Shown: positions 15,089 to 39,233 of the stretch, piece by piece
Layout: each line of letters starts with the position of its first letter
Numbering within the stretch: the first letter of the stretch is position 1
DNA from: Acidithiobacillus ferrianus
Lineage (GTDB): Bacteria > Pseudomonadota > Gammaproteobacteria > Acidithiobacillales > Acidithiobacillaceae
Assembly: GCF_010378095.1 (NCBI RefSeq)
Contig: NZ_WNJL01000030.1
Location: 114,501-178,500 of the forward strand
Length of the DNA: 64,000 nucleotides
Direction of reading: 5' to 3'
The notes under the pieces: generated by a model
The model's input: only the letters and a program-made list of their open reading frames with translations
What the model was told of the DNA's origin: nothing
Database searches by the model: none
Translations under genes and position numbers: made by a program

Positions 15089-15110
15089 TGCGCCAACAGC
15101 GCGTGCAACG

Positions 15111-15830: not shown

Positions 15831-16424
15831 ATGTCCATCAACATCGAACAAAGCGCATTTGCAGGGCTCGACCGTCAGAAAAGGCTGCTGAACCAGGTAT
15901 TCAAGGGCGAACTGAATGCGCAGGGGCGCTTCGGTTTTCGCGGTGAGTTGGCCATTAAATTCGCTACCGCGGTAGCCGATGAAGCGCGCCCACCGGAACT
16001 CCTCGCGCAACAAGTCATCAGTTCGGCAGAGCCCGGCGCCCAAAAGATTGCTTTTCTATCCTGCTATCTACTGTCTTTTGGTTACCTGGACGCGCTGGTA
16101 GCCGCCCTGGGTGACACGCTCGAACCCTCGGGCAAATATTTTATCTACTGCAATAATATCGATTTGAGCAAGCGTTACCATCTGGAATATAAGGGTATTC
16201 CATTTTATATCCTGCCGCTGGACGAAGCGACGGTCTACAATGAACTGCTGGACTTGTTCGGACTGGAACGCAACGATCTCAAAAAGCTCGACACCGCGGG
16301 GAAGATCAACCGTATCGCCGAGAGCGCCTTGCGATATAACGATCTATTTCCTGAGATCAACTATGCGGACTGCCTGGCGGGTATGGGTCCGGTACGCGAT
16401 CCCGGTGAAAATCGGCCCGTATAA
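15831..16424 (+). CDS. hypothetical protein, last gene of the nifH operon
   Basis: The 197-residue protein is not recognised. It has alternating helical and strand-like segments, no signal peptide, and one internal cysteine pair region (LSCYLL, FIYCNN). I chose the ATG at 15831 because GGAG lies six bases upstream; an in-frame ATG at 15819 overlaps that site. It follows nifQ by 66 bases and is followed by the operon terminator, so it is very likely co-expressed with nitrogenase. Function unknown. Confidence 0.8.
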   Translation: MSINIEQSAFAGLDRQKRLLNQVFKGELNAQGRFGFRGELAIKFATAVADEARPPELLAQQVISSAEPGAQKIAFLSCYLLSFGYLDALVAALGDTLEPSGKYFIYCNNIDLSKRYHLEYKGIPFYILPLDEATVYNELLDLFGLERNDLKKLDTAGKINRIAESALRYNDLFPEINYADCLAGMGPVRDPGENRPV

Positions 16425-16450
16425 GCGTTTTTTCACTGTTTTAGCGAAAA

Positions 16451-16478
16451 CCCGGAGACCAGTGGTCTCCGGGTTTTT
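16451..16478 (+). terminator. rho-independent terminator of the nifH operon
   Basis: CCCGGAGACC and GGTCTCCGGG form a perfect 10-bp stem with a three-base loop, followed directly by TTTTT. It lies 27 bases after the last gene of the operon. Confidence 0.96.
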
Positions 16479-16533
16479 GAGATTTCGGTGCCGCCCCGTA
16501 TGTTCGTTTTCTTGCAAAACCGTCCCGGACCAT

Positions 16534-16549
16534 TGTAAAGAAACCAACA
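16534..16549. promoter_or_regulatory. NifA upstream activator site for iscA-nifUSV
   Basis: TGTAAAGAAACCAACA matches TGT-N10-ACA and lies 74-89 bp before the -24 element at 16623. Confidence 0.8.
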
Positions 16550-16622
16550 AAACGCCTGACGACACCCCATCGTTAGCTGTTAATCGTCATAATAACAATA
16601 AGTTGAGAGCAATCCCCCAAAC

Positions 16623-16638
16623 TGGCCCGAGTCTTGCA
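16623..16638 (+). promoter_or_regulatory. sigma-54 promoter of the iscA-nifUSV operon
   Basis: TGGCCCGAGTCTTGCA fits the -24/-12 consensus with GG-N10-GC spacing. It is 40 bases before the iscA start and follows the terminator of the preceding operon, so it marks a separate transcription unit. Confidence 0.88.
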
Positions 16639-16677
16639 AGAAACGTACAGGAACCCCATCGCGTCAAGGAGAATGTC

Positions 16678-17046
16678 ATGTTGATATTAACGGAAAAGGC
16701 CATTGGCATCGTCAGAAACCTGCTAGCCGAAAATCCTGAAGCGAGCGGATTGCGGGTCGCGGTGACCGGAGGCGGCTGTTCTGGCTATCAATATGGAATG
16801 GGCCTGGAAGCCGAGGCCGGCGCCGAAGACACCGTGGTGGCGATAGAGGACGTGCCCGTTTACGTGGACAACGCCAGCGCCCCCCTGCTGCATGGAGTCG
16901 TCATCGACTATGTGGATGAACTCAGCGGCAGCGGTTTCCGTTTTGAAAATCCCAATGCCACGGGAACCTGCGGTTGCGGGTCGTCATTCACCACGGGGGA
17001 CGAGGCCGCAAACTCCTCGGCATCCTCCTGCGGACATCGGAGCTAA
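16678..17046 (+). CDS. iscA: IscA-type Fe-S protein of the nifUSV operon
   Basis: The 122-residue A-type carrier has [12 protein letters not shown] and TCGCGSSF, supplying the three conserved cysteines, plus a short Ser-rich tail. In Azotobacter a comparable gene precedes nifU. AAGGAG lies before the ATG at 16678; a much longer frame starting at 16240 would cross the operon terminator and the promoter and is rejected. It lies four bases before nifU. Confidence 0.94.
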
Positions 17047-17050
17047 TGCC

Positions 17051-17926
17051 ATGTGGGACTATACGGACAAAGTCAAGGATTACTTTTTCAATCCCAAGAA
17101 TACCGGCGTCCTGGAAGAGGCCAACGCGGTCGGCGAAGTCGGTTCCATCAGTTGCGGGGACGCCCTGCGCCTGATGCTCAAGGTGGACCCGGATACGGAT
17201 GTCATTCTGGATGCCCGCTTCCAGACTTTCGGCTGCGGCTCCGCCATCGCCTCGTCATCGGCGCTGACTGAGCTGATCAAGGGCAAGACGCTGGATGAAG
17301 CGATGCAAATCACCAATCAGGACATCGCCGAGTTTTTGGGCGGACTGCCTCCGGAAAAGATGCACTGTTCCGTCATGGGTGCCGAGGCCCTGCACGCCGC
17401 CATCGCCAACTATCGCGGCGAAGCATGGGCGGACGATCACGAGGAAGGCGCCCTGGTCTGCAAATGCTTCGCCATCGACTCGGCGCTCATCGAGAAGGTG
17501 GCCAGAGAAAACCATTTGTCGACGGTCGAGCAGATCACTTTCTATACCAAGGCGGGCGGTGGCTGCCAGAGTTGCCATGAGCAGATCGAAGATATCCTCG
17601 CGGCGGTAAACGGCAGCGCGCCGATACCGGTGGTGGCGGCGAAACCCGCCGCCAAAGCCGCTCCGTCCCCCATGACCATGGTCCAGAAAATCCAGAAAAT
17701 ATCCGCCGTGATCGATGAAATGCGCCCGCAATTCCGGATGGATGGCGGCGACATCGAACTGGTCGACGTGGATGGCGATACGGTCATGGTGGCCATGAGC
17801 GGCTCGTGCATGAACTGCCAGTCCTCCGGAATCACCATTTCCGGCATCCAGGAGCGTCTGATGCTGACGCTCGGCCGCCCGGTGCGCGTGGTTCCGGCCA
17901 GCATGCCGCAAGCCGTGGGAGTGTAG
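17051..17926 (+). CDS. nifU: NifU, Fe-S cluster assembly scaffold
   Basis: NifU assembles Fe-S clusters from NifS-derived sulfur for NifH and other nif proteins. The 291-residue protein has all three modules: an IscU-like domain (Cys35, Cys62, Cys106), a permanent [2Fe-2S] domain (Cys137, Cys139, Cys172, Cys175) and a C-terminal Nfu domain with C-X2-C (Cys253, Cys256). An Ala/Pro linker joins the last two. GGAG lies eight bases before the ATG. Confidence 0.98.
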
Positions 17927-17928
17927 CC

Positions 17929-19137
17929 ATGCACAGCGCCTATATGGACAACAACGCCACCACGCGGGTGGACCCGCGGATACTGGAGACCATTCTCCCT
18001 TACTTCAGCACGTATTACGGCAACCCCTCCTCCATGCACAGTTTCGGCGGCGATGTCGGCGCACGCCTGGAGGATGCGCGCGCCTCCGTGCAAGCCCTGC
18101 TGGGGGTGGAGCACGACTCGGAAATCATTTTTACCTCCTGCGGTACGGAGTCCGACAACACCGCCATCCTTTCGGCCCTGGCCATACAGCCCGGTCGCCG
18201 GGAAATCATCACCAGCGTGGTGGAGCATCCCGCCATCCTCTCCCTCTGCGACCATCTGGAACGGCATGAAGGCTACAAGGTCCACTACATCCCCGTGGAC
18301 CGGCTGGGGCGCATCTCCATGGAGGCGTATGCCGCGGCGCTCAGCGAACGGGTGGCGGTCGTCTCCATGATGTATGCCAACAATGAGACGGGAACGATCT
18401 TCCCCGTCGAAACCATGGCCCGGATGGCCAAAGCGCAAGGTGTCCTCTTCCACACGGACGCCGTGCAGGCGGTGGGCAAAATTGCCCTGAACCTGCGGGA
18501 GTCGGCCATCGACATGCTCTCCCTCTCCGGCCACAAACTGCACGCACCGAAAGGCGTCGGCGCGCTCTACGTGCGCCGGGGCACCCGCTACCGGCCATTG
18601 TTGCGCGGTGGCCACCAGGAACGCGGGCGCCGGGCCGGCACCGAAAACACCACAGGCATCATCGCCCTGGGTCTGGCGGCGGATCTGGCCGTGGAGCACA
18701 TGGCCTATGAAAACACCATGGTGCGCGCTTTAAGGGATCGCCTGGAGGCCGGGATACTGGCACAGGTGCCTTACGCGTTCGTCAACGGTGATCCGGAACA
18801 CCGCCTGCCCAATACGGCCAGCATCTCGTTCGAATACATCGAGGGCGAAGCCATCCTGATGCTCCTGAGCCGGGTCGGTATCGCCGCCTCCTCGGGTTCC
18901 GCCTGCACCTCCGGATCTCTGGAACCGTCCCATGTGCTGCGCGCCATGGATATCCCCTACACGGCGGCGCACGGCACCATCCGTTTCTCCCTGTCCCGGG
19001 AGACCACCGAAGCCGACGTGGACTGGGTGATTGCGCAGACACCGCCCATCATCGAGCAATTGCGGCGTCTGTCCCCCTATTGGGGTGCCAACGGCCCCAT
19101 TCTCACTGACAACGCTTTTGCACCCGTGTATGCATGA
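17929..19137 (+). CDS. nifS: NifS, cysteine desulfurase
   Basis: This PLP enzyme releases sulfur from L-cysteine for NifU. The 402-residue protein carries the PLP lysine Lys203 ([10 protein letters not shown]), the substrate-binding MDNNATT start, and the catalytic Cys326 (SSGSACTSG). Length and motifs match group I NifS. The ATG is two bases after the nifU stop with GGGAG upstream. Its end overlaps nifV by eight bases. Confidence 0.98.
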
Positions 19138-20290
19138 AATCAGCCCGACCCCCAAAAGCTTCTCGGTAATCCACGACACCACCCTGCGCGATGGCGAGCA
19201 GACCGCAGGGGTAGCCTTCCGTCCCGAGGAAAAACTGGCTATCGCCGAGAGCCTGGCCAACGCCGGGATTCCGGAGCTGGAGATCGGCATTCCCGCCATG
19301 GGGAGCGAAGAGGAGGACACCATCCGGGGCATTGCCCAGATGGGCCTTCCCGCCCGCCTCGTGGTCTGGTGCCGGATGCACGACAAGGATCTCGCCGCGG
19401 CGAAGCGTTGTGGCGTGGATATGGTCAATGCCTCCGTACCGGTTTCAGACATCCAGATTCGCGGCAAGCTGGGCAAAAACCGTCAATGGGTCTTGCAGGA
19501 GGTGGATCGCCGGGTGAAGCAGGTGCTGGACAGCGGCATGGACGTGGCGGTGGGCGGCGAAGACGCCTCCCGGACCCCTCTGGATTTCGTGCTGCGGGTC
19601 ATGGAGATCGCTCAACGCGCGGGCGCGCGCCGCTTTCGTTACGCCGACACCCTGGGTCTTCTGGAACCCTTCAATACCGCCCATATCATGCAGCGCCTAA
19701 GGGCGGCCACGGACCTGGAAATCGAGATACATGCCCACAACGACCTGGGTCTGGCCACGGCCAACTCCATCGCCGCCCTGTGTTTTGGCGCCACCCATGT
19801 GAACACGACGGTGAACGGTCTCGGAGAGCGCGCCGGCAATGCCGCGCTGGAGGAAGTGGTCATGTGCCTGCATCATTTGCACGGCTTCGAGACCGGTATT
19901 GAAGTGCGTCAGTTCAAGGCGATTTCGCAACTGGTGGCGCTGGCTTCCGCGCGGCCGGTGCCGGCTGGCAAAAGCATCGTCGGCGATGCCATTTTCAGCC
20001 ACGAGTCGGGTATCCACGTCGATGGGCTGATCAAAAACCCCCGCAATTATCAGAGCTTCGATCCGGAGGAACTGGGACGCCAACATCATATGGTGCTGGG
20101 CAAGCATTCCGGCACCCGGGCCATCATGCGCGCCTATGCCGAACTCGGCAGTGCCATCACGGAATTACAAGCGCAAAGCATCCTCAAACAGATTCGCCTC
20201 TATGTGCTTCAGCACAAGGCCCCACCGCCCGTAGAGGACCTGCATCGCTTTCTTCTGGAGAGCGTGGAGTCCCTGCACGCGCATTCCTGA
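19130..20290 (+). CDS. nifV: NifV, homocitrate synthase
   Basis: NifV condenses acetyl-CoA and 2-oxoglutarate to homocitrate, the organic ligand of FeMo-co. The 386-residue DRE-TIM metallolyase has [16 protein letters not shown] near the N-terminus, the metal-binding [16 protein letters not shown], and [18 protein letters not shown]. The start chosen (ATG at 19130) overlaps nifS by eight bases; the next gene begins directly after its stop. Confidence 0.97.
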
Positions 20291-27110: not shown

Positions 27111-27140
27111 TTGACAGCAAAAAATATTTGCCGGTATATT
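27111..27140 (+). promoter_or_regulatory. sigma-70 promoter of the WtpA/ModA-like gene
   Basis: TTGACA (27111-27116) and TATATT (27135-27140) are separated by 18 bases. The -10 lies inside the palindrome at 27132-27155, so a repressor bound there would block it. Confidence 0.75.
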
Positions 27141-27155
27141 CCATTGAATATTTCG
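27132..27155. promoter_or_regulatory. Mo-box-like palindrome (candidate ModE site)
   Basis: CGGTATATT-N6-AATATTTCG contains a perfect inner inverted repeat (ATATTC-CATT-GAATAT). It resembles ModE operators (left half CGTTATATT in E. coli, recalled from memory) and aligns with a second site at 39324-39347. It overlaps the -10 of the promoter at 27111-27140. Confidence 0.55.
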
Positions 27156-27176
27156 CAAACCACAGGAGTAGAGCCC

Positions 27177-28100
27177 GTGAAACACCGTCACACTCAAAGT
27201 TCCCTTGCACTGATCGCCGCCGCCAGCCTGCTGGGTTTATCGCCCCAGGCCATGGCCAAAGACCTGCATGTCGCTTACGCAGGCTCCATGGGTGCGGTCA
27301 TGGACCTGCATCTCGGACCGGCCTTCGCCAAAGCCCATAACGTGCAATATCAGGGCGAGGGCCAGGGCGCTTACGGCCTCGCCCAGCTCATCGCCGCCCA
27401 TAAACTGCGCACCGACGTTTTTGTCTCCATCACCCCCGGCCCCATCGAGGTGCTGATCAAGGCCGGTCTGGTCAAGGCGGCCTATCCGGTCGCCAGTACT
27501 GCCATGTGCATCGCTTATAGTCCCGACAGCCCCTACGCCAAAGACTTCAAGGAAGCCGCGGAAGGCAAAGTACCCTGGTATGAAATCCTGCAGAAGCCGG
27601 GGGTAGTCTTCGGCCGCACAGATCCCAAAACCGATCCCCAAGGGCAAAATATCGTCTTTACCTTCATGCTGGCGGAAAAGTATTACCACCAGCCGGATCT
27701 GGTGCACAAAATCCTCGGCCCGGTCGAGAACCCGCAGCAGATATTCACGGAGACATCCTTGCTTTCCCGCCTCAAGAGCGGCCAGATGGCCGCCTCATCG
27801 GGTTATCTCAGCGCGGTAAAATCCCTGCATCTGCCTTATATCACCCTGCCCGATCAGATCAATCTCAGCAATCCGGCCATGGTCAAAGGCTGGTACAGCA
27901 AAGTCCACTTCACCCTGAATGTGAACGGAAAACCCAAGACCGTGCATACCCAGCCCCTGGTCTTCTATGCCGCGGTACCCGTCGACGCGCCCGACCCCAA
28001 ACTGGGCATGGCCTTTATCCACTTCATGACCAGCCCCCAGGGTCAGGCCATGTTCAAAGAGACCGGCTATAACCCGCCCAAGGGTGACCTGTTGAAATAA
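27177..28100 (+). CDS. molybdate/tungstate-type ABC substrate-binding protein (WtpA/ModA-like)
   Basis: The 307-residue protein has a Sec signal peptide ending near ALA-type QAMA-K (residues 1-27) and a periplasmic binding fold: YAGSMGAVMDLHLGPAF, a GEGQGAYGLAQLI block, TDVFVSITPGPIEVLIKAGL and a C-terminal IHFMTSPQGQAMF. These match the WtpA/ModA oxyanion-binding group. GTG at 27177 has AGGAG eight bases upstream. No cognate permease or ATPase follows, so it may share a transporter encoded elsewhere. Substrate (molybdate, tungstate or another oxyanion) cannot be read with certainty. Confidence 0.85.
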   Translation: MKHRHTQSSLALIAAASLLGLSPQAMAKDLHVAYAGSMGAVMDLHLGPAFAKAHNVQYQGEGQGAYGLAQLIAAHKLRTDVFVSITPGPIEVLIKAGLVKAAYPVASTAMCIAYSPDSPYAKDFKEAAEGKVPWYEILQKPGVVFGRTDPKTDPQGQNIVFTFMLAEKYYHQPDLVHKILGPVENPQQIFTETSLLSRLKSGQMAASSGYLSAVKSLHLPYITLPDQINLSNPAMVKGWYSKVHFTLNVNGKPKTVHTQPLVFYAAVPVDAPDPKLGMAFIHFMTSPQGQAMFKETGYNPPKGDLLK

Positions 28101-28253
28101 AGCGGGTCTGCGCCAGGGCGTTCGGCGCCCGGCGTAAACAGTTCGCCGGTCCGCTGGGGTGAGGCATCCCTCCGCGACCCGGCTGATGATGCCGCGTTAT
28201 ATTCAAAATACCGTAATGAAACCCACCATACTCGATACGCAGGAGCCATTCCC

Positions 28254-29582
28254 ATGCAGAAAAATATCCTTCACCTGATGACAGCAGCCAGCCTGATGGG
28301 CGCCTTCAACGCCAGTGCCCAAGCCGAAACCCTGTCCCAGTTTTTTGCGAAAAGCCACATTGACGGACAAATCCGTTCCTATTACTTCAGCCGTCTCTAT
28401 GGCACGCCCAACACCGTCAATGCGTATGCCTACTCCCTGGCCGGACGCATCAATATCGTCACCGCACCCTTCCTCTCGGGTTTCCGGGTCGGCGTCAGTT
28501 TTTACACCGCCAACGCACTGGGCACACAGCCCGGCAATCCGGCACGGATCGACAAGACCCTCATGGGCACCAGCCCCTCCGTCAATGCGCTGGGTCAGGC
28601 CTATCTGGAATATCGGGACAAATGGATCACCGCCAAGGCAGGCAATCAGTTGGTGGATACCCCGTGGCTGAACCGGGTCGGCGGGCGGGTGATTCCCGTC
28701 ACTTATCAGGGGGTGACCCTGGAGGCCCATCCCATCAGCGGCCTGCAACTCAGCGCGCTGCGGATTTTCCGCTGGAAAGACCGCACCACCGGCCAGTTTT
28801 ATCGGGACAACCTCTATTACCCCGGCCACTATGCAGGCGATTCCCTCTATGGTGGACCCAATGTGCTGCCCGCCGGTACTCCGCCTACCAACGGGGCGCT
28901 CGCCTTTGGCGCCCAATATCACGCGTATCACGCCGAAACTGCTGCCTACTTTTACCAGTTCGACCAGTTCGCCAACATGTTCTACTGGAGCGGCCACTAC
29001 GCCCTGCCGACATCATTCGTCCTCAAGCCTTTTGTGGATGCGCAGTTCACCCGGGAATGGGGTGCCGGAGAGGCCTTTGCGAGCACCGGTACCACCCTCT
29101 TTGGCCAGCCAGGACAAGGTGTGAACAGCACCAACTGGGGTATCAAGACCGGTATCGCATTTCCTCACGGTAGTCTGTGGTGGGGTTATGATGCTACAGA
29201 ATTGCATGCCCACGCCTTGGGCGGCGGCGCCATTATTTCCCCCTATACCGTCGGCTATACGGCAGACCCGCTGTATGTGGACAGCATGATACAGGGCCTG
29301 GTCGGCGTGGGCCCGGGACATGGCTGGCGGGTGCGGGCCGCTTACTGGGTGCTGCCTGAACAAGTCCAACTGACCGCAGGCTACTCACAATTCACCACCT
29401 ATTTCTCCGGTAACAGCAACTGGACCCACTTTAACGTGAGCTATTTCCCCCAGGGCATGTTCAGGGGGCTGTGTTTGCGGGATCAGGTGGAGGTGGGGAA
29501 CGGTGGTGTGGCCGGGCTGTTTCCGGGCTCAGGGCAGCACTCCTTTGTCTACAATCGGGTGATGATGACTTATCAGTTTTAG
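28254..29582 (+). CDS. OprD-like outer membrane porin
   Basis: The 442-residue protein has a signal peptide ending near SAQA (about residue 24) and a long, aromatic-rich, beta-strand-like body with a C-terminal MMTYQF, typical of outer membrane beta-barrels. The pattern (DGQIRSYYFSR near the N-terminus, repeated Gly-Tyr strands) fits the OprD/MOMP-type porin group, which passes small solutes. It lies 153 bases after the binding protein gene; the gap holds a GC hairpin (GGGCG...CGCCC near 28116-28130) and a CGTTATATT half-site at 28195. Confidence 0.82.
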   Translation: MQKNILHLMTAASLMGAFNASAQAETLSQFFAKSHIDGQIRSYYFSRLYGTPNTVNAYAYSLAGRINIVTAPFLSGFRVGVSFYTANALGTQPGNPARIDKTLMGTSPSVNALGQAYLEYRDKWITAKAGNQLVDTPWLNRVGGRVIPVTYQGVTLEAHPISGLQLSALRIFRWKDRTTGQFYRDNLYYPGHYAGDSLYGGPNVLPAGTPPTNGALAFGAQYHAYHAETAAYFYQFDQFANMFYWSGHYALPTSFVLKPFVDAQFTREWGAGEAFASTGTTLFGQPGQGVNSTNWGIKTGIAFPHGSLWWGYDATELHAHALGGGAIISPYTVGYTADPLYVDSMIQGLVGVGPGHGWRVRAAYWVLPEQVQLTAGYSQFTTYFSGNSNWTHFNVSYFPQGMFRGLCLRDQVEVGNGGVAGLFPGSGQHSFVYNRVMMTYQF

Positions 29583-29652
29583 CACCAGGTATCGCTGCTG
29601 CGTGGCGGATCCCGCGTTGAGGTATCATCACGCAGGATGGCGAGTGGCGACC

Positions 29653-30660
29653 ATGGACGCGATGGATACACCGGAAAAAATCACCCCCTCTGAGCTGGCG
29701 GAACGGCAGAAATCCCGTTGGATGATGGCATCCACGGGGCTCAATGGCCTGCTCTCCATAGCAAAAATCGGCTGGGGTGTTTACTCCGGCAGCACCGTCG
29801 TCATCGCCGACGCCGTGCATAGCATTTCCGATGTATTGGGTGCGCTGCTCATCCTTGCGGCCATCCGCTTTTCCCGCCACCGCTCCTTGCGATTTCCCTA
29901 CGGTCTCCATAAGATGGAGGACATGGCTGCCCTGGGCGGCGCCTTGCTGGTCGTCGTTGCCGCCTATGAGATCGCCCGCGCGGTGTTTTTCTCCGGCGGT
30001 GCGCGGCCACCTGACAATCCTTTGGCCACCATGGGTTTCATGACGGCCATTCTGGTGGCCGAAGGAATTTTTTATGTTTTCGAGCGACGCGCCGCCACCC
30101 ACCTCCACTCCCCCGGACTGCAGAGCGATGTGGTCAACTGGCTGGGCGATATCGGCGCCGGGGTGGTGGTCATGGCCGGAATCGGCGGGCATCTCCTGCG
30201 AATACCCTTTGCGCAGGAAATCGCCGTTCTCATCATCCTTCTCCTGATCCTGCAGGGTACCTGGGGGGTGCTGAAAAACGCCATCCTTTCGCTGCTGGAC
30301 GCATCGGTGGAATCCGAACTGTACGCGAAGGCAAAAAACCTGCTGCTGACCACGCCGGAAGTGGAAGCCGTGGAGGGACTGCGTCTGCGCCACGCCGGAA
30401 GTGTCCTGTTCGCGGACGCCACCATCGGTGTCGCTGCGGCGAACTTCGCGCACGCCCATGAAGTAGCCGACCGCGCCCAACGGCGCTTACAAGAAGCGTT
30501 TCCCGAACTGGAAAACATCACACTTCATTATGAGCCGCCCTTCAAGCCATTCAAAAGACGGGCATTCCTTCTGACTGCGGAAGGATCGGCGCTGGCCACA
30601 CGCTTTGGGATGGCGCGCGTATTCGTTTTGAGGACGAAAACCGCGAGGGTGTCCTGCTGA
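29653..30660 (+). CDS. cation diffusion facilitator (CDF) transporter, probably frameshifted at the 3' end
   Basis: The 335-residue CDF protein has the metal-binding motif VVIADAVHSISDVLG in the first helices, HKMEDMAALG in helix IV, and about six membrane segments, then a cytoplasmic domain (VEAVEGLRLRHAG...). CDF proteins export divalent metals (Zn, Fe, Mn, Co) by proton exchange. ATGs at 29653 and 29662 are possible. The last ten or so codons before 30660 look out of frame: another frame continues with a NifX-like tail to 30863 (see next entry). The break is near the GC run at 30611-30618. Confidence 0.88.
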   Translation: MDAMDTPEKITPSELAERQKSRWMMASTGLNGLLSIAKIGWGVYSGSTVVIADAVHSISDVLGALLILAAIRFSRHRSLRFPYGLHKMEDMAALGGALLVVVAAYEIARAVFFSGGARPPDNPLATMGFMTAILVAEGIFYVFERRAATHLHSPGLQSDVVNWLGDIGAGVVVMAGIGGHLLRIPFAQEIAVLIILLLILQGTWGVLKNAILSLLDASVESELYAKAKNLLLTTPEVEAVEGLRLRHAGSVLFADATIGVAAANFAHAHEVADRAQRRLQEAFPELENITLHYEPPFKPFKRRAFLLTAEGSALATRFGMARVFVLRTKTARVSC

Positions 30661-30923: not shown

Positions 30924-31949
30924 TTAGACCCACGCCTTCCGTATTTGCCTGAGCACCAGTAAAAACGCAGGCACCCCCAGAAGTTCCGCAAATACGCCCA
31001 CCGGGACATCCACGGAGAACAGATTGCGGGCCATGGCGTCTGCGAGCAAAAGGTAGGCGGCACCCAGAATACTGCTCCCGATCAGGAGCCGGCGATTACC
31101 CGGACCGAGCATCAGACGCGCCAGATGGGGGATGATGAGCCCGATCCAGCCGATCATCCCCGCCATCATCACGGCCATAGCCGCCAGCAGCGTCGCAAGC
31201 ACGATGACCAGCAAACGAATCTGGCGCACAGGCAGACCAAGACTATGGGCCTCCTCGTCCCCCAGACTGAGGGCATCGAGACGATGACCTTGCAACATCA
31301 ACAGCGCGATCCCGATAAAAACCGGCAAGGCAAAGTAGGGTATTTGCCGCAGGGGCACGTTGGAAAGACTGCCCATCAACCAGAAAACGATACTGGGTAG
31401 CTGCTGGTACGGATCGGCGGCATATTTCACTAGGGAAAGCAGCGCGGTAAACAAGGCTCCGGCCAGGATGCCACCAATCACCAGCATCAGGGTGGGCTGC
31501 CCGGGAAAATGCCGGGCGATCAGATAAGCCATCACCACGGCGATCAGCCCGAAAATAAAGGCGGCCACCTGTATCGTCCACCAGGGTCCACCTACAATGA
31601 TACCCAAGGCACCGCCGAAAGCGGCGCCGGCCATAACGCCCAGAATATCCGGGGCCGCCAGCGGATTGCGGAACACCGCCTGAAAGACCGTGCCACTGGC
31701 CGCCAGCGCCGCACCCACCAGGATCGCCACCGAGAGGCGCGGCAGGCGGATCTCCACCATCAACAACTGGATCTGCATGGCTTTTCCCGGCGATAACAAT
31801 GGGCTGCCCCGCAGCCATTGCCAGAATTGCAGCCAGGACAGCGGGTAATGTCCCCAGGACATTTCCAGCACAACCATAGCGGTCAGGAGCACGAGCAGTA
31901 ATGGCATGGTCAGCCTCTTGGCCGACCCTGGCAGCGCCGTTATCCTCAC
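30924..31949 (-). CDS. FecCD/BtuC-type ABC permease (MolB-like)
   Basis: The 341-residue integral membrane protein has the family blocks VEIRLPRLSVAILVGAALAASGTVFQAVFRNPLAAPDILGVMAGA and LATLLAAMAVMMAGMIGWIGLIIPHLAR, with about ten helices. It moves metal chelates or molybdate across the inner membrane with an ATPase dimer. The GTG at 31949 overlaps the TGA of the binding protein gene (GTGA), which favours it over the ATG at 31907. Substrate is not determined by sequence; MolB of Haemophilus, in the same family, carries molybdate. Confidence 0.92.
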   Translation of the reverse strand: MRITALPGSAKRLTMPLLLVLLTAMVVLEMSWGHYPLSWLQFWQWLRGSPLLSPGKAMQIQLLMVEIRLPRLSVAILVGAALAASGTVFQAVFRNPLAAPDILGVMAGAAFGGALGIIVGGPWWTIQVAAFIFGLIAVVMAYLIARHFPGQPTLMLVIGGILAGALFTALLSLVKYAADPYQQLPSIVFWLMGSLSNVPLRQIPYFALPVFIGIALLMLQGHRLDALSLGDEEAHSLGLPVRQIRLLVIVLATLLAAMAVMMAGMIGWIGLIIPHLARLMLGPGNRRLLIGSSILGAAYLLLADAMARNLFSVDVPVGVFAELLGVPAFLLVLRQIRKAWV

Positions 31950-32980
31950 GGCTGCCACATCGCCTGCGCCTGCGCCTTGCTCACGTTTACCTGCAGAAAA
32001 GTCTTGAAGAAGTCCTGTATCTCCTGATTCAGATGAATTTTGGACTGCTGCGGATACAGCACGTGTGCCAGCCACAAAGCGCCCAAACCCTGCATGAACG
32101 AAGGCGGACGATCCATCCAGTTAAAAGGCTGGCGGGGCACCAGGTAAACTCGATGATCTTTTACCGCCTGGAGGCCCTGCCAGGCCGGAAGGCTATACAC
32201 GCGCCGGTAAAAAACCGGGTCCTGCACCAGAATCACGTCGGGATTCCAGCCCAGCACCTGCCCCATACTCACCCGTTCCATCCCTTTCAGCGCCGTCGCC
32301 TTGCCGGTAAACACATTGTCACCGCCTGCGGCACGGATCACCTGGGTATGGGGAGAATTCGCCGTGTCGGTCATCAGGCCGTCCACGCCTTCCGCATAAT
32401 ACACCGTCTGGCGCTGTGTCTGGGGAATGGCGTTGCGCAACTGCCGAAGCCGATTCAGGATATTCTGAAACGTCGTGGCCAGCAGCTCGCCGCGTGCGCT
32501 TTGCCCCAATTTATCGCCCAGCAGACGGTACGCGGCCGGGTAGTCGTTCAGACTTTCAAGATTTACCGCCAGCGTGGGCACATCAATGCGCTGTAACTCA
32601 TTACGCAGGCGAACATTATCCAGGTAAGGTGCCCAGAGCAAAGCCAGCTTTGGATGAATGGCGAGGACGCGTTCCAATTCGGGCTTGTCGCCAGGGTCCC
32701 AACCACCCAGTACCGGCAAATTGCGCGTAGCCGGCAGGAGGTACTCGGAATTCGCACTCATACCCAGCCCCCCCATTTTATTCAGCGGGAAATTCCACCC
32801 GGCCAGCAAATCTGGGGCGAGACTGTAAACCAGCAGGGTCATTGGCGGCGCGGTGCCGTAAACACTGTGGGGCGGAAGTTGGGTGGGGGCCGTGGCCGCC
32901 CACGATGGCAAAGAGAGCAACAGGCTGGTGCCCAATGCCGCAGTAGGTAGGCGCCATTTGCCTGGCAAAATATTAAACAT
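31946..32980 (-). CDS. periplasmic metal-chelate/oxyanion binding protein (FepB/BtuF/MolA-like)
   Basis: The 344-residue protein has a signal peptide ending about SWA-AT (residue 28) and a class III binding fold: VYGTAPPMTLLVYSLAPDLL, PELERVLAIHPKLALLW, WNPDVILVQDPVF and DRPPSFMQGLGALWLAH. The last motif with an Asp-Arg-Pro-Pro-Ser occurs in relatives that bind iron chelates or molybdate. It is placed between the fused ATPase gene and the permease gene, with a four-base overlap with the latter. Confidence 0.9.
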   Translation of the reverse strand: MFNILPGKWRLPTAALGTSLLLSLPSWAATAPTQLPPHSVYGTAPPMTLLVYSLAPDLLAGWNFPLNKMGGLGMSANSEYLLPATRNLPVLGGWDPGDKPELERVLAIHPKLALLWAPYLDNVRLRNELQRIDVPTLAVNLESLNDYPAAYRLLGDKLGQSARGELLATTFQNILNRLRQLRNAIPQTQRQTVYYAEGVDGLMTDTANSPHTQVIRAAGGDNVFTGKATALKGMERVSMGQVLGWNPDVILVQDPVFYRRVYSLPAWQGLQAVKDHRVYLVPRQPFNWMDRPPSFMQGLGALWLAHVLYPQQSKIHLNQEIQDFFKTFLQVNVSKAQAQAMWQP

Positions 32981-32999: not shown

Positions 33000-34550
33000 T
33001 CAGAAAGCGTTCAGCAATGGTTGTCGATTCACGACGGGAGCGAAGCCCGCCAATTCCAGTATTTTCTGTGCAGAGTCCGTCTGCAGGTAGGCGACAAAAG
33101 CACGGGCCAGTTCTGGTTCTGCTCCCTTGGTGGTAACAGCCACGGGATAGTGCATGGAAACGCCGACTGGAATATCCACGACATGGGCCTTTCCCGATAC
33201 GCTGTTGGCCGTCGATGCAAAAATAAAAACCGCATCTGCCCTGCCTTCCAGCACCGCTTGCAGAGGCCGGAGACCGTCTGGGTATTTCTGCAGGCGCGCT
33301 TCCAGGTCTTGCCATAATCCGGCCTTTTCCAGCGCCATGCGCGCATAACGTCCGGGCGGAACCGATTCGGGATCCCCCACGGCAATGCGCGCATAGCGCT
33401 CTTCCATGAGATCTTCGAGTTTGGGTGCCACCGGATAATCCCTCATCAAACTGACGAGTACGAGCCGATTCCGTGCATAGTTCACCGCCGTATCGGTCTG
33501 CACGAATCCCTGCCCCGCAGCCTTTGCCAGCATGGGCTCCGAAGAGGGGGCAAACACATCGGCTGGCGCACCTGCCGCCATTTGTTCCATCAGCGCACCG
33601 CAAAAACCATAGGTGGGTTTCACAGAGACATCCGGGTGGGCGCTGGTAAAGCCCTGGATGATTTCCTGAAAAGGTTCGGCCAAGGTAAGGGAGGCAAAAA
33701 TGTGCAGAGTATGGGTCATGGGATATTCCTCAGAAGACAAGTTCAAACAGGCCCCGCGTCTGCTCGGGGACACGGCGGAAGCAAGCACTTTAGGCAAGAT
33801 AACGCGGCGACCGTCGCTGATTTCGAGACACTCCGTGTCTATTCCATACAATGCGCGTAGACGTTCCGGGTGGAGCACTTCCGCAGGTGGGCCGTCAGCA
33901 AGTACACGTCCGTCCTTCAGCAGAATGACCCGGTTTGCTGTGGAAAGGGCGTGTTCCGGATAATGACTGCTCTGAAGGATGGCATAACCGCTGTCCGCCA
34001 AGTCCTGAATCTGCGCCATCAGGCGATGTTGATTGCCATAATCCAGCCCGGTTACCGGCTCATCGAGAATCAGTATCGGTGTCTCCTGGGCCAATGCGCG
34101 GGCGATGATGACCAGTTGCCGCTGACCCCCGCTCAGTTCCATGTAGGAACGCTCCGCGAGACTACTGATACCCAGCCGGGCGAGCGCCGCTTCCGCCTGC
34201 TCCCGATCATGGGCGCTGGCAGCGCCCAGCCATGATTGGTGGGGCATGCGGCCCATGAGCACCACGTCCCGCACCAGGAAAGGAAAGACCGCCCCATGAT
34301 CCTGGGGTACATAAGCCAGTCGTTGCGCCCGCTCTTTGGCCGATAGGGCATGCAAGTCGGTATCCCCAAGGCGAATCTCGCCCCGCAGCGGTTTCAGAAT
34401 GCCGAGAAGCAGACGAATGAGGGTGCTTTTTCCGCTGCCGTTAGCCCCAAGCAGGGCTACCGACTCTCCGGCATTCAACTGCAGTGAGACATCTTCCAGG
34501 ACCATGCGATGGCCATGGGCATAGGCTAAATGCGAAGTGCTCAGCATCAT
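33000..34550 (-). CDS. ABC ATPase fused to a ModA-like molybdate-binding domain
   Basis: Residues 1-about 255 are a FecE/MolC-type ATPase: Walker A GANGSGKST, Q-loop VPQDHGAVF, signature LSGGQRQ, Walker B ILILDEPVTGLD and an H-loop SSHYPEHA. After a poor linker (about 255-277), residues 278-516 form a ModA-type fold (IFASLTLAEPFQEII, MAAGAPADVFAPSSEPML, GRADAVFIFAS). The ModA part has no signal peptide. An internal ATG at 33719 with GAGGAATATCCC upstream could also start a separate 239-residue ModA. No stop separates the two. The usual Ser of the anion site (FGxSGAL) appears as Cys (YGFCGAL). Confidence 0.85.
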   Translation of the reverse strand: MMLSTSHLAYAHGHRMVLEDVSLQLNAGESVALLGANGSGKSTLIRLLLGILKPLRGEIRLGDTDLHALSAKERAQRLAYVPQDHGAVFPFLVRDVVLMGRMPHQSWLGAASAHDREQAEAALARLGISSLAERSYMELSGGQRQLVIIARALAQETPILILDEPVTGLDYGNQHRLMAQIQDLADSGYAILQSSHYPEHALSTANRVILLKDGRVLADGPPAEVLHPERLRALYGIDTECLEISDGRRVILPKVLASAVSPSRRGACLNLSSEEYPMTHTLHIFASLTLAEPFQEIIQGFTSAHPDVSVKPTYGFCGALMEQMAAGAPADVFAPSSEPMLAKAAGQGFVQTDTAVNYARNRLVLVSLMRDYPVAPKLEDLMEERYARIAVGDPESVPPGRYARMALEKAGLWQDLEARLQKYPDGLRPLQAVLEGRADAVFIFASTANSVSGKAHVVDIPVGVSMHYPVAVTTKGAEPELARAFVAYLQTDSAQKILELAGFAPVVNRQPLLNAF

Positions 34551-35284
34551 GGGTTGGCATCCGTCAGACGAAAACGAATCGGCACTTTTACCTGCATGGC
34601 CACCGGTTTTCCGTCGCGTGTACCGGGGGTGAAGCGCCAGTGCTGCACGGCCTTTTCGGCCGCCCGATCCAGGCTGGTGTAGCCGGAACTGCGGGCCACC
34701 GTTATTTTTTCCGGCAGACCGGACACATTGACCAGTACGCGCAGCAGTACTGTGCCCTCCTCCCCATCCCAGCGCGCCGACTGGGGATAATCCGGTGCGG
34801 GGTTGTGGGCATAAGCAGGGATGCTGGGGCGGGTTTCCGCCGCTGGAGCGGGAGGGGATGGAGGTAAAGTGGGCACGACCGGTGCGACAGCGACCGGTGT
34901 CGCCGGAGCAGGCGCCAGGAACATGGTGGATGGGGCTGCGGGTGCAGCCAGCGCACTCGGCGCCGAGAGCGGGGTGCGGACCGGCACTTTGACCTCCCGC
35001 AGCGGTCTGGGGGGCAGCTTGGGCGGAGTGGGAACGGATTTTCGCGGTATCAAGGCGGTGGTCTGAAGCGCTGGCGGTTTGGGAGCGGGCTGTGGGGTGG
35101 CACTGGGCTGCGGCCAGGAAACCAGTTGGACCGCCATGGGCGGGGTGATCACCGGCGTGGGCAGAGGAGATGCCCGCATCCAGACGGCCAGAACCGCCAG
35201 AATGCCCGATTCCAGGATCAGGGCCAGCAGAAAAACCACGGCCCTAGGCGGCTGCGGGCTGAAGGGGAGCGCCAGAGTGCTCAC
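34547..35284 (-). CDS. tonB: TonB energy-transducing protein
   Basis: The 245-residue TonB has one N-terminal membrane anchor (VVFLLALILESGILAVLAVW), a long Pro/Ala/Val-rich periplasmic spacer, and a C-terminal domain with HNPAPDYPQSARWDGEEGTVLLRVLV and a VQHWRFTPG motif. It couples the proton gradient via ExbBD to the outer membrane receptor. It overlaps exbD and the ATPase-ModA gene by four bases each, placing it within the operon. Confidence 0.95.
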   Translation of the reverse strand: MSTLALPFSPQPPRAVVFLLALILESGILAVLAVWMRASPLPTPVITPPMAVQLVSWPQPSATPQPAPKPPALQTTALIPRKSVPTPPKLPPRPLREVKVPVRTPLSAPSALAAPAAPSTMFLAPAPATPVAVAPVVPTLPPSPPAPAAETRPSIPAYAHNPAPDYPQSARWDGEEGTVLLRVLVNVSGLPEKITVARSSGYTSLDRAAEKAVQHWRFTPGTRDGKPVAMQVKVPIRFRLTDANP

Positions 35285-35676
35285 GGCTGCCCCGCACGGG
35301 TAGCGATGCCCATCTGGCTGATGCCGGCGTGGCGGCAGGCATCCATCACCGCCACGAGCTGCTGCAAGGTCACCGTTTTGGCACCCGCCAAAATGACTTG
35401 GGTATGGACCGGATCGTTCTGGGCCAATTGTTGCTCCAGTTGGCTCAGACTGACGGTCTTATCCCGAAAATGCAGACTGCCGTCGCTTTGCAATTCTACG
35501 ACCAGCGGGGTTTTTGGCAGAATCTGCGCACTGCTGCTGGTCGGCAACCGAGTGCTGATCCCAGACGCGGGGATCATGCGCAAGGTAATCATGATGAAGA
35601 ACACCAGCAGAAAAAGCATGATGTCGATCATGGGAATGATCTCGATGCGCCCCTTGCGTGCCTCGAAATAACGCAT
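35281..35676 (-). CDS. exbD: ExbD biopolymer transport protein
   Basis: The 131-residue protein has the ExbD/TolR pattern: a short cytoplasmic start, one membrane helix with the key Asp (IIPMIDIMLFLLVFFIM), and a periplasmic domain. It works with ExbB as a proton-driven motor. The ATG follows exbB by one base. Confidence 0.96.
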   Translation of the reverse strand: MRYFEARKGRIEIIPMIDIMLFLLVFFIMITLRMIPASGISTRLPTSSSAQILPKTPLVVELQSDGSLHFRDKTVSLSQLEQQLAQNDPVHTQVILAGAKTVTLQQLVAVMDACRHAGISQMGIATRAGQP

Positions 35677-35677: not shown

Positions 35678-36331
35678 TCAGATCTCCCCTCGCCGCGCCA
35701 GCAGACTGACGGGGGTTTCCCCGTGGGGTCTGGCGGGCTGCCGGTAGAGGCGGTTGAGGGCGGTCACCTTGACCGCCTCCATCTGATGGAGCACGAGGCG
35801 CACCCGCTGGTTCAGGGCGTTGAAAAAAATCAGGCCAATAATGGCTACCGTCAAACCGGCAGCCGTCGCCACCAGTGCCTCGGCCACATGGCCGGTGATA
35901 GCGGTCGGAGCAGTGCTTTGATCGCCCAGTATCTGAAAGGCCTTAAACATGCCAATGATGGTCCCCAGGAGCCCCAGTAAGGGTGCCAGGGTGACGGCGG
36001 TATCCAGCATCCACAAACCGCGGTCCAGCAAAGTCGCCTGAGCGAGCATGGCTTCCTCGGCGTAGCCATCGCCGCTGTCCAGATCATGGGAACCCAGCAC
36101 CGCCGCGAGCACGGCCAGCTGCGGACTCGGCAGCGCCATTGTCAGCCGTTCCCCCAGACCATCCCGTCCTTTCGCCCCCTGCATATCTCTCAGGAGCGTC
36201 GCTCCCTGGCGTAGAAGCCGAGCCAAGGCCCAACTCCGCTCCAACGCCACGAAGAGCACCACCAGTAACAGCAGGGGCATCAAGTACAGGATACCTCCGG
36301 ATACCGCTGCCAGATGCCACCAGGTTTGCAT
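35678..36331 (-). CDS. exbB: ExbB/TolQ-type proton channel protein
   Basis: The 217-residue protein has three membrane helices and the ExbB hallmark LAPLLGLLGTIIGMFKAF and EALVATAAGLTVAIIGLIFFN. I chose the ATG at 36331, preceded by GGGGGCAG, rather than upstream in-frame codons inside the receptor gene. It lies ten bases after the receptor stop. Confidence 0.95.
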   Translation of the reverse strand: MQTWWHLAAVSGGILYLMPLLLLVVLFVALERSWALARLLRQGATLLRDMQGAKGRDGLGERLTMALPSPQLAVLAAVLGSHDLDSGDGYAEEAMLAQATLLDRGLWMLDTAVTLAPLLGLLGTIIGMFKAFQILGDQSTAPTAITGHVAEALVATAAGLTVAIIGLIFFNALNQRVRLVLHQMEAVKVTALNRLYRQPARPHGETPVSLLARRGEI

Positions 36332-36341
36332 GGTCTGCCCC

Positions 36342-38606
36342 CTAAAACTGTAGCGAAACCGTACCCGCCACTGTAATCGGCGCGCCCGGGAAAAAACTTG
36401 CACCAGACGATTGCAGATAGCTGGTATCTATCAACCCGATGTAATGGCGGTTGAAAAGATTCATGATAGCCAGGTTGGCGCTTAATGTACTAATGCCGGC
36501 CAGATGTTGTTTGTACCCGAAATTGAGGTTCGCCAGGAAATAACCAGGTACCACCTCGGTATGCATGGAATCCACATAACGGCTGGTAAGGTACTGGACA
36601 TTCGGTGAGACAGAGAACCTATGATAGCGATAAGACGCGCCCAAGCTGCCCACGAAGAGCGGTGTATCGGGGAACTGCAATCCATTCACCGGTAATATGG
36701 TACCACCAAGCGTACGGATATTTTGGGTAAAATTCGCTCGATCATAGGCGAGATTGCTGAAAACTGTCAGATCAGGCAATGGATTTACACCGGCAGAGAG
36801 TTCTGCACCCCAGGCATGCCCCGTGCCGGCGTTCTGGTCATAGGAGATGCCCACCCGCGGATCGTAGAAGGTCACATATTTGTTGCGATAGGTGGCAAAA
36901 AAAAGCGCGGGGCGCAGGTACCAGCGGTCGTAATGGATATTCAGACCGAGGTTGAAGGCGTTGGAGGTTTCCGGCTTCACTGTGTCCCAGCCGGACTGCA
37001 CGGTCATGCCGGCTTTTTGAAAGGCGGACCAATTCATCTGCAGTTGCGGCCAGTTATTGAAAGCCGGCGCGCCATTATCCCGGCCGTAGGCGAAGGTAGC
37101 CTGCATATGCGGGGTGGCCTTATAAACCATTCCGAAGTATGGCAACCACTGGTAAAAAGTGTGCCCGGAAGCGCTGCGTATCGGGTTGACAGAAGTGGCC
37201 TGGGCGAGGGCTGCGTCGTAGGACACATTGCCGATCCCCTGGGTGTTATATACAGTGAAAGAGGGAGTCTGCTCCATAAGATAGCGCGCACCGCCGGTCA
37301 CCTGCAACGCCCCGAAATCGTGGGATACCGTGAAATAAGGGCTGTTAAAGACATGATTTGCAGTCGCCCGCGCCAGCAGCGCCCAACCGCCAAAGGTCAG
37401 CCCTCCGGCGGGATCGATACGGTATATTTTCCAGGAAGTAGGTGGTCCAGGTGGATTCAAATTCTCGAACCAGTAACCCACCGTCACCTGAGTCCCGGAA
37501 AAACTCCCTTGATACTGGGCAACAAGACCATAGGAATGGTGATTGATACCCCAATGCAGCAGACCCGGCTGATCTCCTCCGATGGCGCTCTTTCCCATGA
37601 GATAATAGCCATTTTCCTGGCTGTAAAAAGGTTTGAGTACAAAGGTACACTGCGCATTGGGGTGCCAGTTCAGTTCACCAAAAATGGCATAATCCTGGAA
37701 TTTTTGCCGGTTGTAACCGTAATAATTGACATCTTGTGCGGCGTTTCCCGTCAGGTTGGCGTTGTAACCCAGATTATAATATTTACCAGGATCACTGGCC
37801 TGAGCATAACTGAGCGGAAGGTAATTGTTCTCTTTCATATTGTCATAAGCGGCATAGAGCTTGGCGGTAAGGGTGGGGCTGAAGTCCTGACTGATGCCAA
37901 TTTCACCGTTATAGCGAAAATCCGGTGAGCCCCCGGAACCCCGCCATTGACCGGCATGGGTATATGAACCAGAGACAAAAAACCGGGTTCCGGTAGGCAA
38001 GGCACCAGAATCCAGACGGATAAAAGTGCGATGAAAATCGAAAGAACCGAAACTCTGGCTGACCACACCGCCAAATTGTGCCTGTGGCCAAAGCACTTCA
38101 CTGTTCAGATAGCCCTGAGTGGTAAATACCGACAGATTATTGGGAGCAAAGGGCGGACGCAGCAAAGTGACGCTGCGGATATCCTCCATATCGAAAAGAA
38201 ACTGTTCGCCGGGCCCGGGATTGATGGCCGACAGAGGCATGCCTTCCACCGTACCGATGCCACCGTGCGGATTGCGCTCGCCCCGGATACGGATACCTTT
38301 ATTGCCGCCTGGGACATTGGCGAGCCCGTAAGGGTCGGGATTTTGCGCTATTACCGAGGGTAACAGCGAGATGGCCTGATAGGGATTGGTCTGACCCGGC
38401 CCACCCAGTATTTTCAACGCAGAACCGCTGATGGTTTCGCCTTGCTCAGCACCCGATGCAGGAGTCTGCAATGCGCCTTCGGGCCGCGCTTTCACGGTGA
38501 CTGTACCTAAGGTCGGCAATGGGGTATCTGCCCAGGCAGAAACCGTAGTTCCGCCCAATGCGCTAGCTACAGCTAAATATAATGAATGGCGTAAAAATGG
38601 CTTCAT
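36342..38606 (-). CDS. TonB-dependent outer membrane receptor
   Basis: The 754-residue receptor has a signal peptide (to about SAWA-DT, residue 26), a TonB-box-like start (LGTVTVKA), a plug domain with LPSVIAQNPDPYGLANVPGGNKGIRIRGERN, and a 22-strand-type barrel ending VAGTVSLQF. It binds a large or scarce ligand at the cell surface. The operon (exbBD, tonB and a MolABC-like ABC system) and the Mo-box-like site suggest a molybdenum compound, but iron chelate or cobalamin cannot be excluded. AGGAG lies nine bases before the ATG. Confidence 0.95.
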   Translation of the reverse strand: MKPFLRHSLYLAVASALGGTTVSAWADTPLPTLGTVTVKARPEGALQTPASGAEQGETISGSALKILGGPGQTNPYQAISLLPSVIAQNPDPYGLANVPGGNKGIRIRGERNPHGGIGTVEGMPLSAINPGPGEQFLFDMEDIRSVTLLRPPFAPNNLSVFTTQGYLNSEVLWPQAQFGGVVSQSFGSFDFHRTFIRLDSGALPTGTRFFVSGSYTHAGQWRGSGGSPDFRYNGEIGISQDFSPTLTAKLYAAYDNMKENNYLPLSYAQASDPGKYYNLGYNANLTGNAAQDVNYYGYNRQKFQDYAIFGELNWHPNAQCTFVLKPFYSQENGYYLMGKSAIGGDQPGLLHWGINHHSYGLVAQYQGSFSGTQVTVGYWFENLNPPGPPTSWKIYRIDPAGGLTFGGWALLARATANHVFNSPYFTVSHDFGALQVTGGARYLMEQTPSFTVYNTQGIGNVSYDAALAQATSVNPIRSASGHTFYQWLPYFGMVYKATPHMQATFAYGRDNGAPAFNNWPQLQMNWSAFQKAGMTVQSGWDTVKPETSNAFNLGLNIHYDRWYLRPALFFATYRNKYVTFYDPRVGISYDQNAGTGHAWGAELSAGVNPLPDLTVFSNLAYDRANFTQNIRTLGGTILPVNGLQFPDTPLFVGSLGASYRYHRFSVSPNVQYLTSRYVDSMHTEVVPGYFLANLNFGYKQHLAGISTLSANLAIMNLFNRHYIGLIDTSYLQSSGASFFPGAPITVAGTVSLQF

Positions 38607-38618: not shown

Positions 38619-39233
38619 CTAAGGGTGCAGTTGCGCGACAATCGTGCTGTAAGGCACCCGTACCGGTTCAGCAACGGTGGTGCGGCGGTTGATCATGCGG
38701 ATGGACAGAGATTCCACCCAGCGCCAGTATTCCTCAGCCACCTCCAGCGGGAATGCGACATTGCGCAGGGCCTGTACGTAGAGATCCAGCCAGAGTTCAC
38801 GGTCCTGTTCCCTTATGGTGAACGGGAAATGCCGCTCCCGCAGGTGGGGATGGCCTTTGCGTTCCGTATAAAGCTTGGCACCACCACAAACCTCGGCGTG
38901 GAAATCCGCCGTCAACCCCACGGCTTTCCAGAAATGCTTTTCGTTGTGACCGAAGATGGGCTGTAGCGGGCTGTGCCAGATCAGCCGATGATGTTCCAGA
39001 ACCAGTTCCCGGACTTTTTCTACCCCAGCCACCCGACCTACCCGGCTGGTCGGAAAAATCACTTCGGGAAAATGCATATCGGTAACGGCGGGCCGCACAA
39101 TGGATTCCTCCTCACCAAAATGACGGATATCCAGCGTCTCCGAGCCGGGGCAGTGCGGGCCCTGCTCCGAGAGGACAGCATCATCGTGAACGGACAACTT
39201 CAGGACGGCTGATCTTTCCTGTTCCATATTCAT
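38619..39233 (-). CDS. truncated-haemoglobin-like protein heading the TonB operon
   Basis: The 204-residue protein has about 60 unknown residues, then a region that looks like a truncated globin: LVLEHHRLIWHSPLQPIFGHNEKHFW, HPHLRERHFPFTIREQDRELWLDLYVQAL. The GHPHLRERHFPF segment matches the proximal-histidine helix of group II truncated haemoglobins. Such proteins bind O2 or NO or serve as haem sensors. ATGs at 39233 and 39227 are both plausible (GAGGG upstream). It is twelve bases from the receptor gene and the first gene of the operon. Confidence 0.65.
   Translation of the reverse strand: MNMEQERSAVLKLSVHDDAVLSEQGPHCPGSETLDIRHFGEEESIVRPAVTDMHFPEVIFPTSRVGRVAGVEKVRELVLEHHRLIWHSPLQPIFGHNEKHFWKAVGLTADFHAEVCGGAKLYTERKGHPHLRERHFPFTIREQDRELWLDLYVQALRNVAFPLEVAEEYWRWVESLSIRMINRRTTVAEPVRVPYSTIVAQLHP

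Follow-up and report, generated by a model that had tools for sequence, protein, structure and literature searches.

We analysed a window of 64,000 nucleotides from Acidithiobacillus ferrianus (contig NZ_WNJL01000030.1, positions 114,501 to 178,500), in which a tightly packed gene run extends from 39233 to 30924 with gaps of -130 to 19. The run comprises, in order, a truncated globin, a TonB-dependent receptor, ExbB, ExbD, TonB, an ATPase fused to a ModA-like domain, a binding protein and a permease. The features referred to below, with the basis of each call in brackets, are as follows.

6480..20290, plus strand: nifH, nifD, nifK, nifE, nifN, nifU and nifV, all within this stretch (family search)
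27111..30660, plus strand: three-gene cluster of a WtpA-like binding protein, an OprD-like porin and a cation-efflux protein (profiles)
30924..32075, minus strand: FecCD-type permease, closest solved relative HI1471 (MolB) (Pfam, structure matches)
31946..32980, minus strand: solute-binding protein, Peripla_BP_2, MolA-like, with an N-terminal segment that looks signal-like by eye (Pfam, structure matches)
33000..33719, minus strand: signal-less ModA-fold domain, residues 278-516 of the fusion, with its own ATG (33719), plus the stop codon (profiles and model)
33720..33791, minus strand: linker, residues 254-277 (about 24 residues), of low model confidence at 265-276 (comparison and model)
33727..33731, minus strand: GAGGA, Shine-Dalgarno-like, 7 nt before the internal ATG (sequence)
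33792..34550, minus strand: ATPase part of FecE/MolC type, residues 1-253, complete (Pfam and family profiles)
34547..35284, minus strand: TonB (family match)
35281..35676, minus strand: ExbD-like protein (named by sequence and operon position)
35678..36403, minus strand: ExbB-like protein (named by sequence and operon position)
36342..38606, minus strand: TonB-dependent outer-membrane receptor (Pfam)
38619..39233, minus strand: truncated globin, the gloA of a 2008 paper and first gene of the packed run (Pfam)

The ATPase and the ModA-fold domain are joined in a single open reading frame of 516 codons (34550-33000, minus strand) whose translation has no internal stop. In a Pfam scan at E 0.001, residues 18-166 matched ABC_tran and residues 282-503 matched SBP_bac_11, and no TOBE/MOP domain was matched in the fusion; on the modA family TIGR01256 the fusion scored 121.9 bits, with the cut-off at 62.5. 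The translation of the ATPase part displays Walker A, ABC signature, Walker B and H-loop motifs. The initial annotation had described this stop-free frame, and its coordinates, linker position and internal start are all correct. The ribosome-binding site that it had proposed for the ATG at 33719 is also present, and it is unchanged in a close relative (G002). When the fusion was modelled, both domains were of high confidence, while linker residues 265-276 fell under a pLDDT of 50 and the pTM was 0.57, so that no contact between the ATPase and the ModA domain is predicted by the model. The ModA-fold domain was also modelled alone.

To follow the domain among relatives, we searched 29 genomes of the Acidithiobacillaceae family with the ModA part and counted matches at E 0.001. 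Seven of the 29 matched: the window genome (G000), G002, G006, G007, G005, G013 and G020. Identity was 90% in G002, 89% in G006 and 85% over the 40 residues of a remnant in G007, and the matches in G005, G013 and G020 were distant (25-36%). In G002, the domain is fused likewise, with the same linker as in the window. In G006, on the other hand, the ATPase relative stops at residue 263 and the ModA part is, at the DNA level, a separate gene that has an AAGGAG site of its own and follows a TonB-receptor-like gene. G007 keeps an ATPase 97% identical to that of the window while most of the ModA part is gone; a ModA-like remnant, out of frame, lies behind the intact ATPase part (L024, 7113-7223). 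Since the domain was lost there with such an ATPase retained, transport does not need the domain. In two further genomes (G010, 76% identity; G025, 60%), the ATPase is present without the ModA part.

A domain-restricted search of 5.8 billion proteins found the ATPase also present in 4 of 48 matches, the window's own cluster counted. These four fused clusters hold 22, 13, 1 and 10 member sequences (46 in total) at 69-92% identity to the window. One of them, P0003, is a 500-residue protein that resembles the G002 fusion with a 16-residue gap; another, P0004, is 69% identical over its full length and 64% over the domain, and its linker is shorter by 17 residues. A search with the domain alone gave, among the best 120 of 341 matches, free relatives of 237-239 residues (P0049-P0054, 66-92% identity) and one shortened free relative (P0055), beyond which identity was at most 40% among those matches. 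The free status of P0049-P0054 is a protein-level call that depends on gene calling, G006 being the one case checked at the DNA level. A contig scan of named public genomes for the ModA-like part returned 55 pattern matches and no relatives, in a collection from which records near the window are possibly absent.

We considered sequencing or assembly error as the source of the open frame and ruled it out, since the same frame occurs in G002 and in clusters P0002-P0004 and the fusion thus recurs in four protein clusters. The open linker was likewise set aside as a sole argument, because 24 open codons are unremarkable on their own; it is the recurrence that carries the case. A tree was built from 11 family members with 5 outgroup rows (P0003 and the truncated P0055 left out; the outgroup rows, like those used for folding, picked by hand from the matches). 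In it, fused and free rows interleave with four changes, at least two of them forced by well-supported branches, and the fused and free labels cluster no more than shuffled labels do. This alternation indicates that the fusion itself is not essential. The initial annotation had proposed a comparison with related genomes, in which a stop codon between the domains of close relatives would speak against the fusion: the fusion does recur in relatives, but G006 and P0049-P0054 carry the domain free. Together, these findings confirm that the ATPase-ModA fusion is real but optional.

Both domains are kept by purifying selection. Between G000 and G002, dN/dS was 0.13 for the ATPase part and 0.19 for the ModA part, fused against fused; against the free G006 copy, the ModA part gave 0.22 (G000) and 0.19 (G002). 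The operon's binding protein is close to the ATPase, with 0.13-0.14 for both. Across the 24 linker codons, we counted 4 nonsynonymous and 2 synonymous changes between G000 and G002 (dN/dS about 0.68), while the 15 bases from GAGGA through the ATG are identical in the two genomes. The first 18 linker codons, compared between G007 and G000, hold 2 synonymous and no nonsynonymous changes. The linker counts thus point both ways and the numbers are too small for a test, yet the linker resembles a one-time intergenic region whose start site has been retained, and the changes that it has taken while both domains are under purifying selection lend support to the initial annotation, which had viewed it in this way.

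The domain appears to be cytoplasmic whether fused or free, given that the free relatives also lack a signal. Ahead of domain position 6, the window part and all six complete free relatives have only 5 residues, compared to a median of 35 in 149 other homologues, 9 of which have 12 or fewer. Peak N-terminal hydrophobicity is 1.05-1.27 in the family, while among 113 others the median is 2.44 and the tenth percentile 1.69. Signal absence was judged here by N-terminal length and hydrophobicity rather than by a dedicated signal predictor, and on the same hydrophobicity scale the operon's own binding protein scores only 1.6, its signal-like start being a judgement by eye. In both models, the first strand of the ModA fold is formed by fusion residues 280-287 (residues 3-10 when the domain is modelled by itself); the mild hydrophobicity at the N-terminus therefore reflects core structure and not a signal. 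The missing signal peptide and the cytoplasmic location suggested by the initial annotation are therefore supported. Whereas ModA carries an export signal and is periplasmic, the window domain has no signal; delivery does not depend on the ModA fold, since the operon encodes a further binding protein, which does begin with a signal-like segment. These sequences argue against the periplasmic location published in 2008 for the ModA-like protein.

The anion pocket of the domain is remodelled. In E. coli ModA, the residues that contact molybdate are S12, S39, A125, V152 and Y170. At these columns, 149 other homologues have Ser (146 of 149), Ser (141 of 149), Ala or Val (145 of 149), Val (98%) and Tyr (144 of 149). 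The window family has instead T, C, P, G and F, a pattern that does not vary among the rows spanning these columns (9-10 of 10) and that holds down to 64-65% identity. The fourth and fifth columns correspond to domain positions 149 and 167; the neighbouring positions 150 and 168 hold mixed residues in other homologues, and although a pairwise alignment to 4rxl places a gap at that site and a Tyr opposite A168, the family has no Tyr in either reading. Pro at the third position is found in none of the 149 other homologues, and at the position of A125 it takes away a backbone NH on which known ModA proteins rely. An Asp near the contact Tyr, present in 148 of the 149, is Thr in the window family. 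In the available text on an Acinetobacter ModA, the contact pattern is Ser, Ser, Val, Val, Tyr (PMC11734730). Ligands vary among ModA proteins, and a Pseudomonas ModA is described, in the accessible part of its report, as being without the fifth, side-chain hydroxyl contact (PMC9171197), so the altered pocket may still bind an oxyanion.

Altogether, the domain has the family score and fold of ModA (TIGR01256) but not its conserved contact residues Ser, Ser, Ala/Val, Val and Tyr, and it differs from ModA further in being signal-less and in being fused to, or placed beside, a Mol-type rather than a ModBC transporter. The initial annotation had noted a Ser-to-Cys replacement in the anion site and had proposed a molybdate sensor. 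The replacement is borne out as C317 of the fusion (C40 of the domain), with the other four contact positions changed too. A sensor role remains the best analogy, but because all five contact positions are changed and invariant, molybdate as its ligand cannot be taken over.

The importer that the ATPase serves is likely MolBC-A-like, judging from sequence. MolBC-A of Haemophilus influenzae (HI1470-1472) provides the top solved match of both subunits, clearly for the permease (HI1471, 215.1 bits; next match 159.4) and by a thin margin of 4-8 bits for the ATPase (HI1470, MolBC, 2nq2_C, 135.6 bits; FhuC, 131.9; hemin HmuV, 128-129), which by structure is tied with hemin importers in VIA-align. 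The binding protein matched 4pag_A, labelled 'periplasmic binding protein', at 220.9 bits and then HI1472/MolA at 63.7. Among the matches listed, neither the ATPase nor the permease attained the cut-off of any curated NCBIfam importer family, and the receptor had no match to solved structures at E 0.001. The H. influenzae system differs in two respects: its ATPase chain has 253 residues and no added domain, whereas the window ATPase has the ModA fold, and the window operon includes a TonB system and receptor, unlike MolBC-A. Regulation of MolBC-A was called poorly understood in 2014, in the part of that paper that is available (PMC4031551). Likeness to MolBC-A and linkage to nif genes suggest molybdate or tungstate as the importer's substrate, although this is uncertain.

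A related cluster has been published. The available text of a 2008 study of A. ferrooxidans reports a genomic island that contains an operon for Fe-Mo transport dedicated to nitrogenase (PMC2631029; also PMC2621215); the operon comprises gloA, two receptors, TonB and three 'periplasmic' binding proteins, one of them ModA-like and the other two with predicted Fe(III)-siderophore affinity (PMC2631029). G006 matches this description. Its locus (L023, 4684-9521) has a second transporter set between tonB and the free modA-like gene, consisting of a binding protein and permease 43-45% identical, an ATPase 79% identical and a receptor-like gene, which indicates that the region has been shuffled. The 2008 paper also marks Fur boxes in a figure (PMC2631029); in the window, the best Fur-like site in the gap upstream of the operon (39234-39470) scores 11/19, compared to 14 at the window's best place. 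That gap, upstream of the globin gene, is A/T-rich with repeated GGATATGA/ATATAGC-like words and may be a regulator site. No Rfam riboswitch was matched in the window at gathering score.

The fusion operon lies about 26 kb from nifH in the window. NifH occurs in 14 of the 29 family genomes, ten of which have no ModA part. Each of the four that keep this part, or a remnant of it, has NifH on the same contig, 24-26 kb off; these four are close relatives and so count as one linkage, not four. The two genomes with the ATPase alone (G010 and G025) have no NifH. In a survey of 30 relatives, the fusion was the only ModA above cut-off in this genome, and the best ModB match here was below cut-off, with matches above it in 3 of the 29 family genomes (G005, G013 and G020). 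For ModE, there was one match of 84 bits, under the cut-off of 98.5, and the genome had no match to the nitrate reductase gamma subunit. The three-gene cluster at 27111-30660 adjoins the operon without an adjacent ABC permease, and elsewhere in the genome (L079, 3152-5018) a ModB/WtpB-like permease and a WtpC-like ATPase, below the cut-offs of the families listed, stand without an adjacent binding protein. On contig C188 of G013, a canonical modA-modB pair has nifH about 14 kb off on the same contig, where window-type genomes have the Mol-type operon. Two proteins (P0041 and P0048) combine ModA-like and permease domains in one chain (PF13531 with PF00528).

The domain of NrtC and CmpC belongs to another binding-protein family than ModA, so any likeness to these proteins lies in architecture. 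In a Foldseek search with the fused model, two of the best 50 of 1984 matches span both domains, namely CmpC (9u9z_C) and NrtC (8wm7_C), with alignments of 563-565 columns at 19% identity and an rmsd of 21-24; the other matches among those 50 are ATPases and ModA proteins. Given this rmsd, the arrangement of the domains is not shared. The VIA-align matches are filled by ATPases and ModA chains, and the absence of CmpC and NrtC among them says nothing against the likeness. Like the window protein, NrtC and CmpC of the cyanobacterial nitrate/nitrite and bicarbonate importers combine an ATPase and a C-terminal cytoplasmic binding-protein-like domain in one chain. They differ in that the window ATPase is of MolC/FecE type and that free copies of the domain exist in the window family. 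In addition, their domain is homologous to the importer's own binding protein, whereas here an SBP_bac_11/ModA domain stands beside a Peripla_BP_2/MolA-like binding protein. According to one source on NrtC, nitrate uptake no longer responds to ammonium once the C-terminal domain has been truncated, and the authors speculated on nitrate sensing (PMC6603209). For CmpC, another source describes a domain that blocks both ATPase domains at low nitrate and releases them on nitrate binding, and that senses nitrate rather than the transported bicarbonate (PMC13249358); the sensing of an anion that is not transported fits the remodelled pocket here. By this analogy, the window fusion may work like NrtC and CmpC, but we do not file it as a member of that group.

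The initial annotation had drawn its analogy to the MOP domains of ModC. In Methanosarcina acetivorans ModBC, as described in the available portion of the source, the molybdate importer ATPase ModC has a C-terminal MOP/TOBE domain and there is trans-inhibition (PMC10710835). That domain is also C-terminal on an importer ATPase but has a different fold from the window ModA domain; with no TOBE/MOP match in the fusion, the Foldseek result makes NrtC/CmpC the closest known design instead. In a search by title and the start of the abstract, with subscription literature largely outside its scope, we found no publication describing a union of an ATPase with ModA.

Starting from the binding protein of the operon, we came upon a parallel case in Seleniivibrio and Deferribacteraceae MAGs, where an ATPase is fused to a signal-less MolA-like (Peripla_BP_2) domain (L076, 7972-9858; L077, 7952-9856); a second binding-protein gene follows in both. 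Restricting a search to that domain gave such fusions in at least 28 of the best 120 of 942 matches, all 28 among the 32 proteins P0171-P0202, and also in P0169 and P0170, the named sources being Deferribacterales, Pseudodesulfovibrio and Desulfovibrio. The five sequences looked at had no signal-like linker. Four free signal-less MolA-like copies, two of them named Desulfuromonas, are among the matches listed. By eye, the two Deferribacterota loci have ATPases near the MolC type, whereas those of desulfovibrios look different in type, one source name being TauB. These proteins have the same arrangement as the window fusion, a signal-less domain on an importer ATPase, but with another fold; importer ATPases have thus acquired a cytoplasmic domain of binding-protein type on more than one occasion.

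We consider it probable, though by no means secure, that the fused gene, in an operon that is TonB-dependent and linked to nitrogenase, encodes the ATPase of a MolBC-A-like importer, and that its ModA fold serves as a cytoplasmic regulatory domain of NrtC/CmpC design. A cytoplasmic ligand would bind the remodelled ModA-like cleft, and its binding or release would alter the contact of the domain with the ATPase pair and so throttle import. The domain would work attached, or free beside the transporter where it is made in that form, and the internal start may supply both forms in fused strains. Alternatively, the ATPase gene may simply have lost its stop and now read on into its neighbour. What does the work would then be a separate ModA-like protein, translated in the cytoplasm from the internal ATG, which might buffer or carry Mo or act as a chaperone when the nitrogenase cofactor is assembled, and the fusion would be tolerated without a role. 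The near-neutral linker, on few sites, the alternation of fused and free forms on the tree, the nearby nif genes and the internal ribosome site, kept in G000 and G002 at the place where the free copies start, are all consistent with this account. We nevertheless regard it as rather unlikely, as the fused frame persists across 31% protein divergence and a 17-residue difference in the linker, unless P0004 fused independently, and as importer ATPases have likewise been joined by a MolA-like fold, which makes it more likely that closeness to the ATPase is what selection has kept.

That the domain is a captured modA without function, on its way out as in G007, seems improbable to us. Its changed contact residues and the G007 remnant would suit such decay, but its dN/dS of about 0.19 is close to the 0.13-0.14 of the ATPase and the operon's binding protein, and the altered pocket residues do not vary down to 64-65% identity. 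Far harder to sustain is the role drawn for A. ferrooxidans in 2008, in the part of that paper available, of a periplasmic binding protein that delivers molybdate (PMC2631029). It would agree with the ModA family score above cut-off, the operon context and the nif linkage, yet the protein has no signal segment, fused or free, and begins with a core strand of its fold; it is fused to a cytoplasmic ATPase, its molybdate-contact residues are altered, and this genome has no ModB above cut-off.

Returning to the regulatory reading that we prefer, a broader version of it is possible but tentative: signal-less binding proteins of different folds, ModA-like in Acidithiobacillaceae and MolA-like in Deferribacterales and desulfovibrios, may have been recruited repeatedly as cytoplasmic sensors on ATPases of Mol-type and related importers. 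What the domain of Acidithiobacillus would then sense, through its Cys/Pro/Phe pocket, is another anion or a nitrogenase-tied Mo species instead of free molybdate, and it would thereby set metal import for nitrogen fixation, with attached and free forms interchangeable. The close relatives offer a small testable set of proteins in which the domain is fused, free or deleted. If the regulatory reading is true, a protein published as a periplasmic binding protein would be an internal sensor, the model of how bioleaching bacteria supply Fe and Mo to nitrogenase would be corrected, and the NrtC/CmpC principle would extend to importers of the metal-oxyanion type as well as to two more folds of binding proteins.
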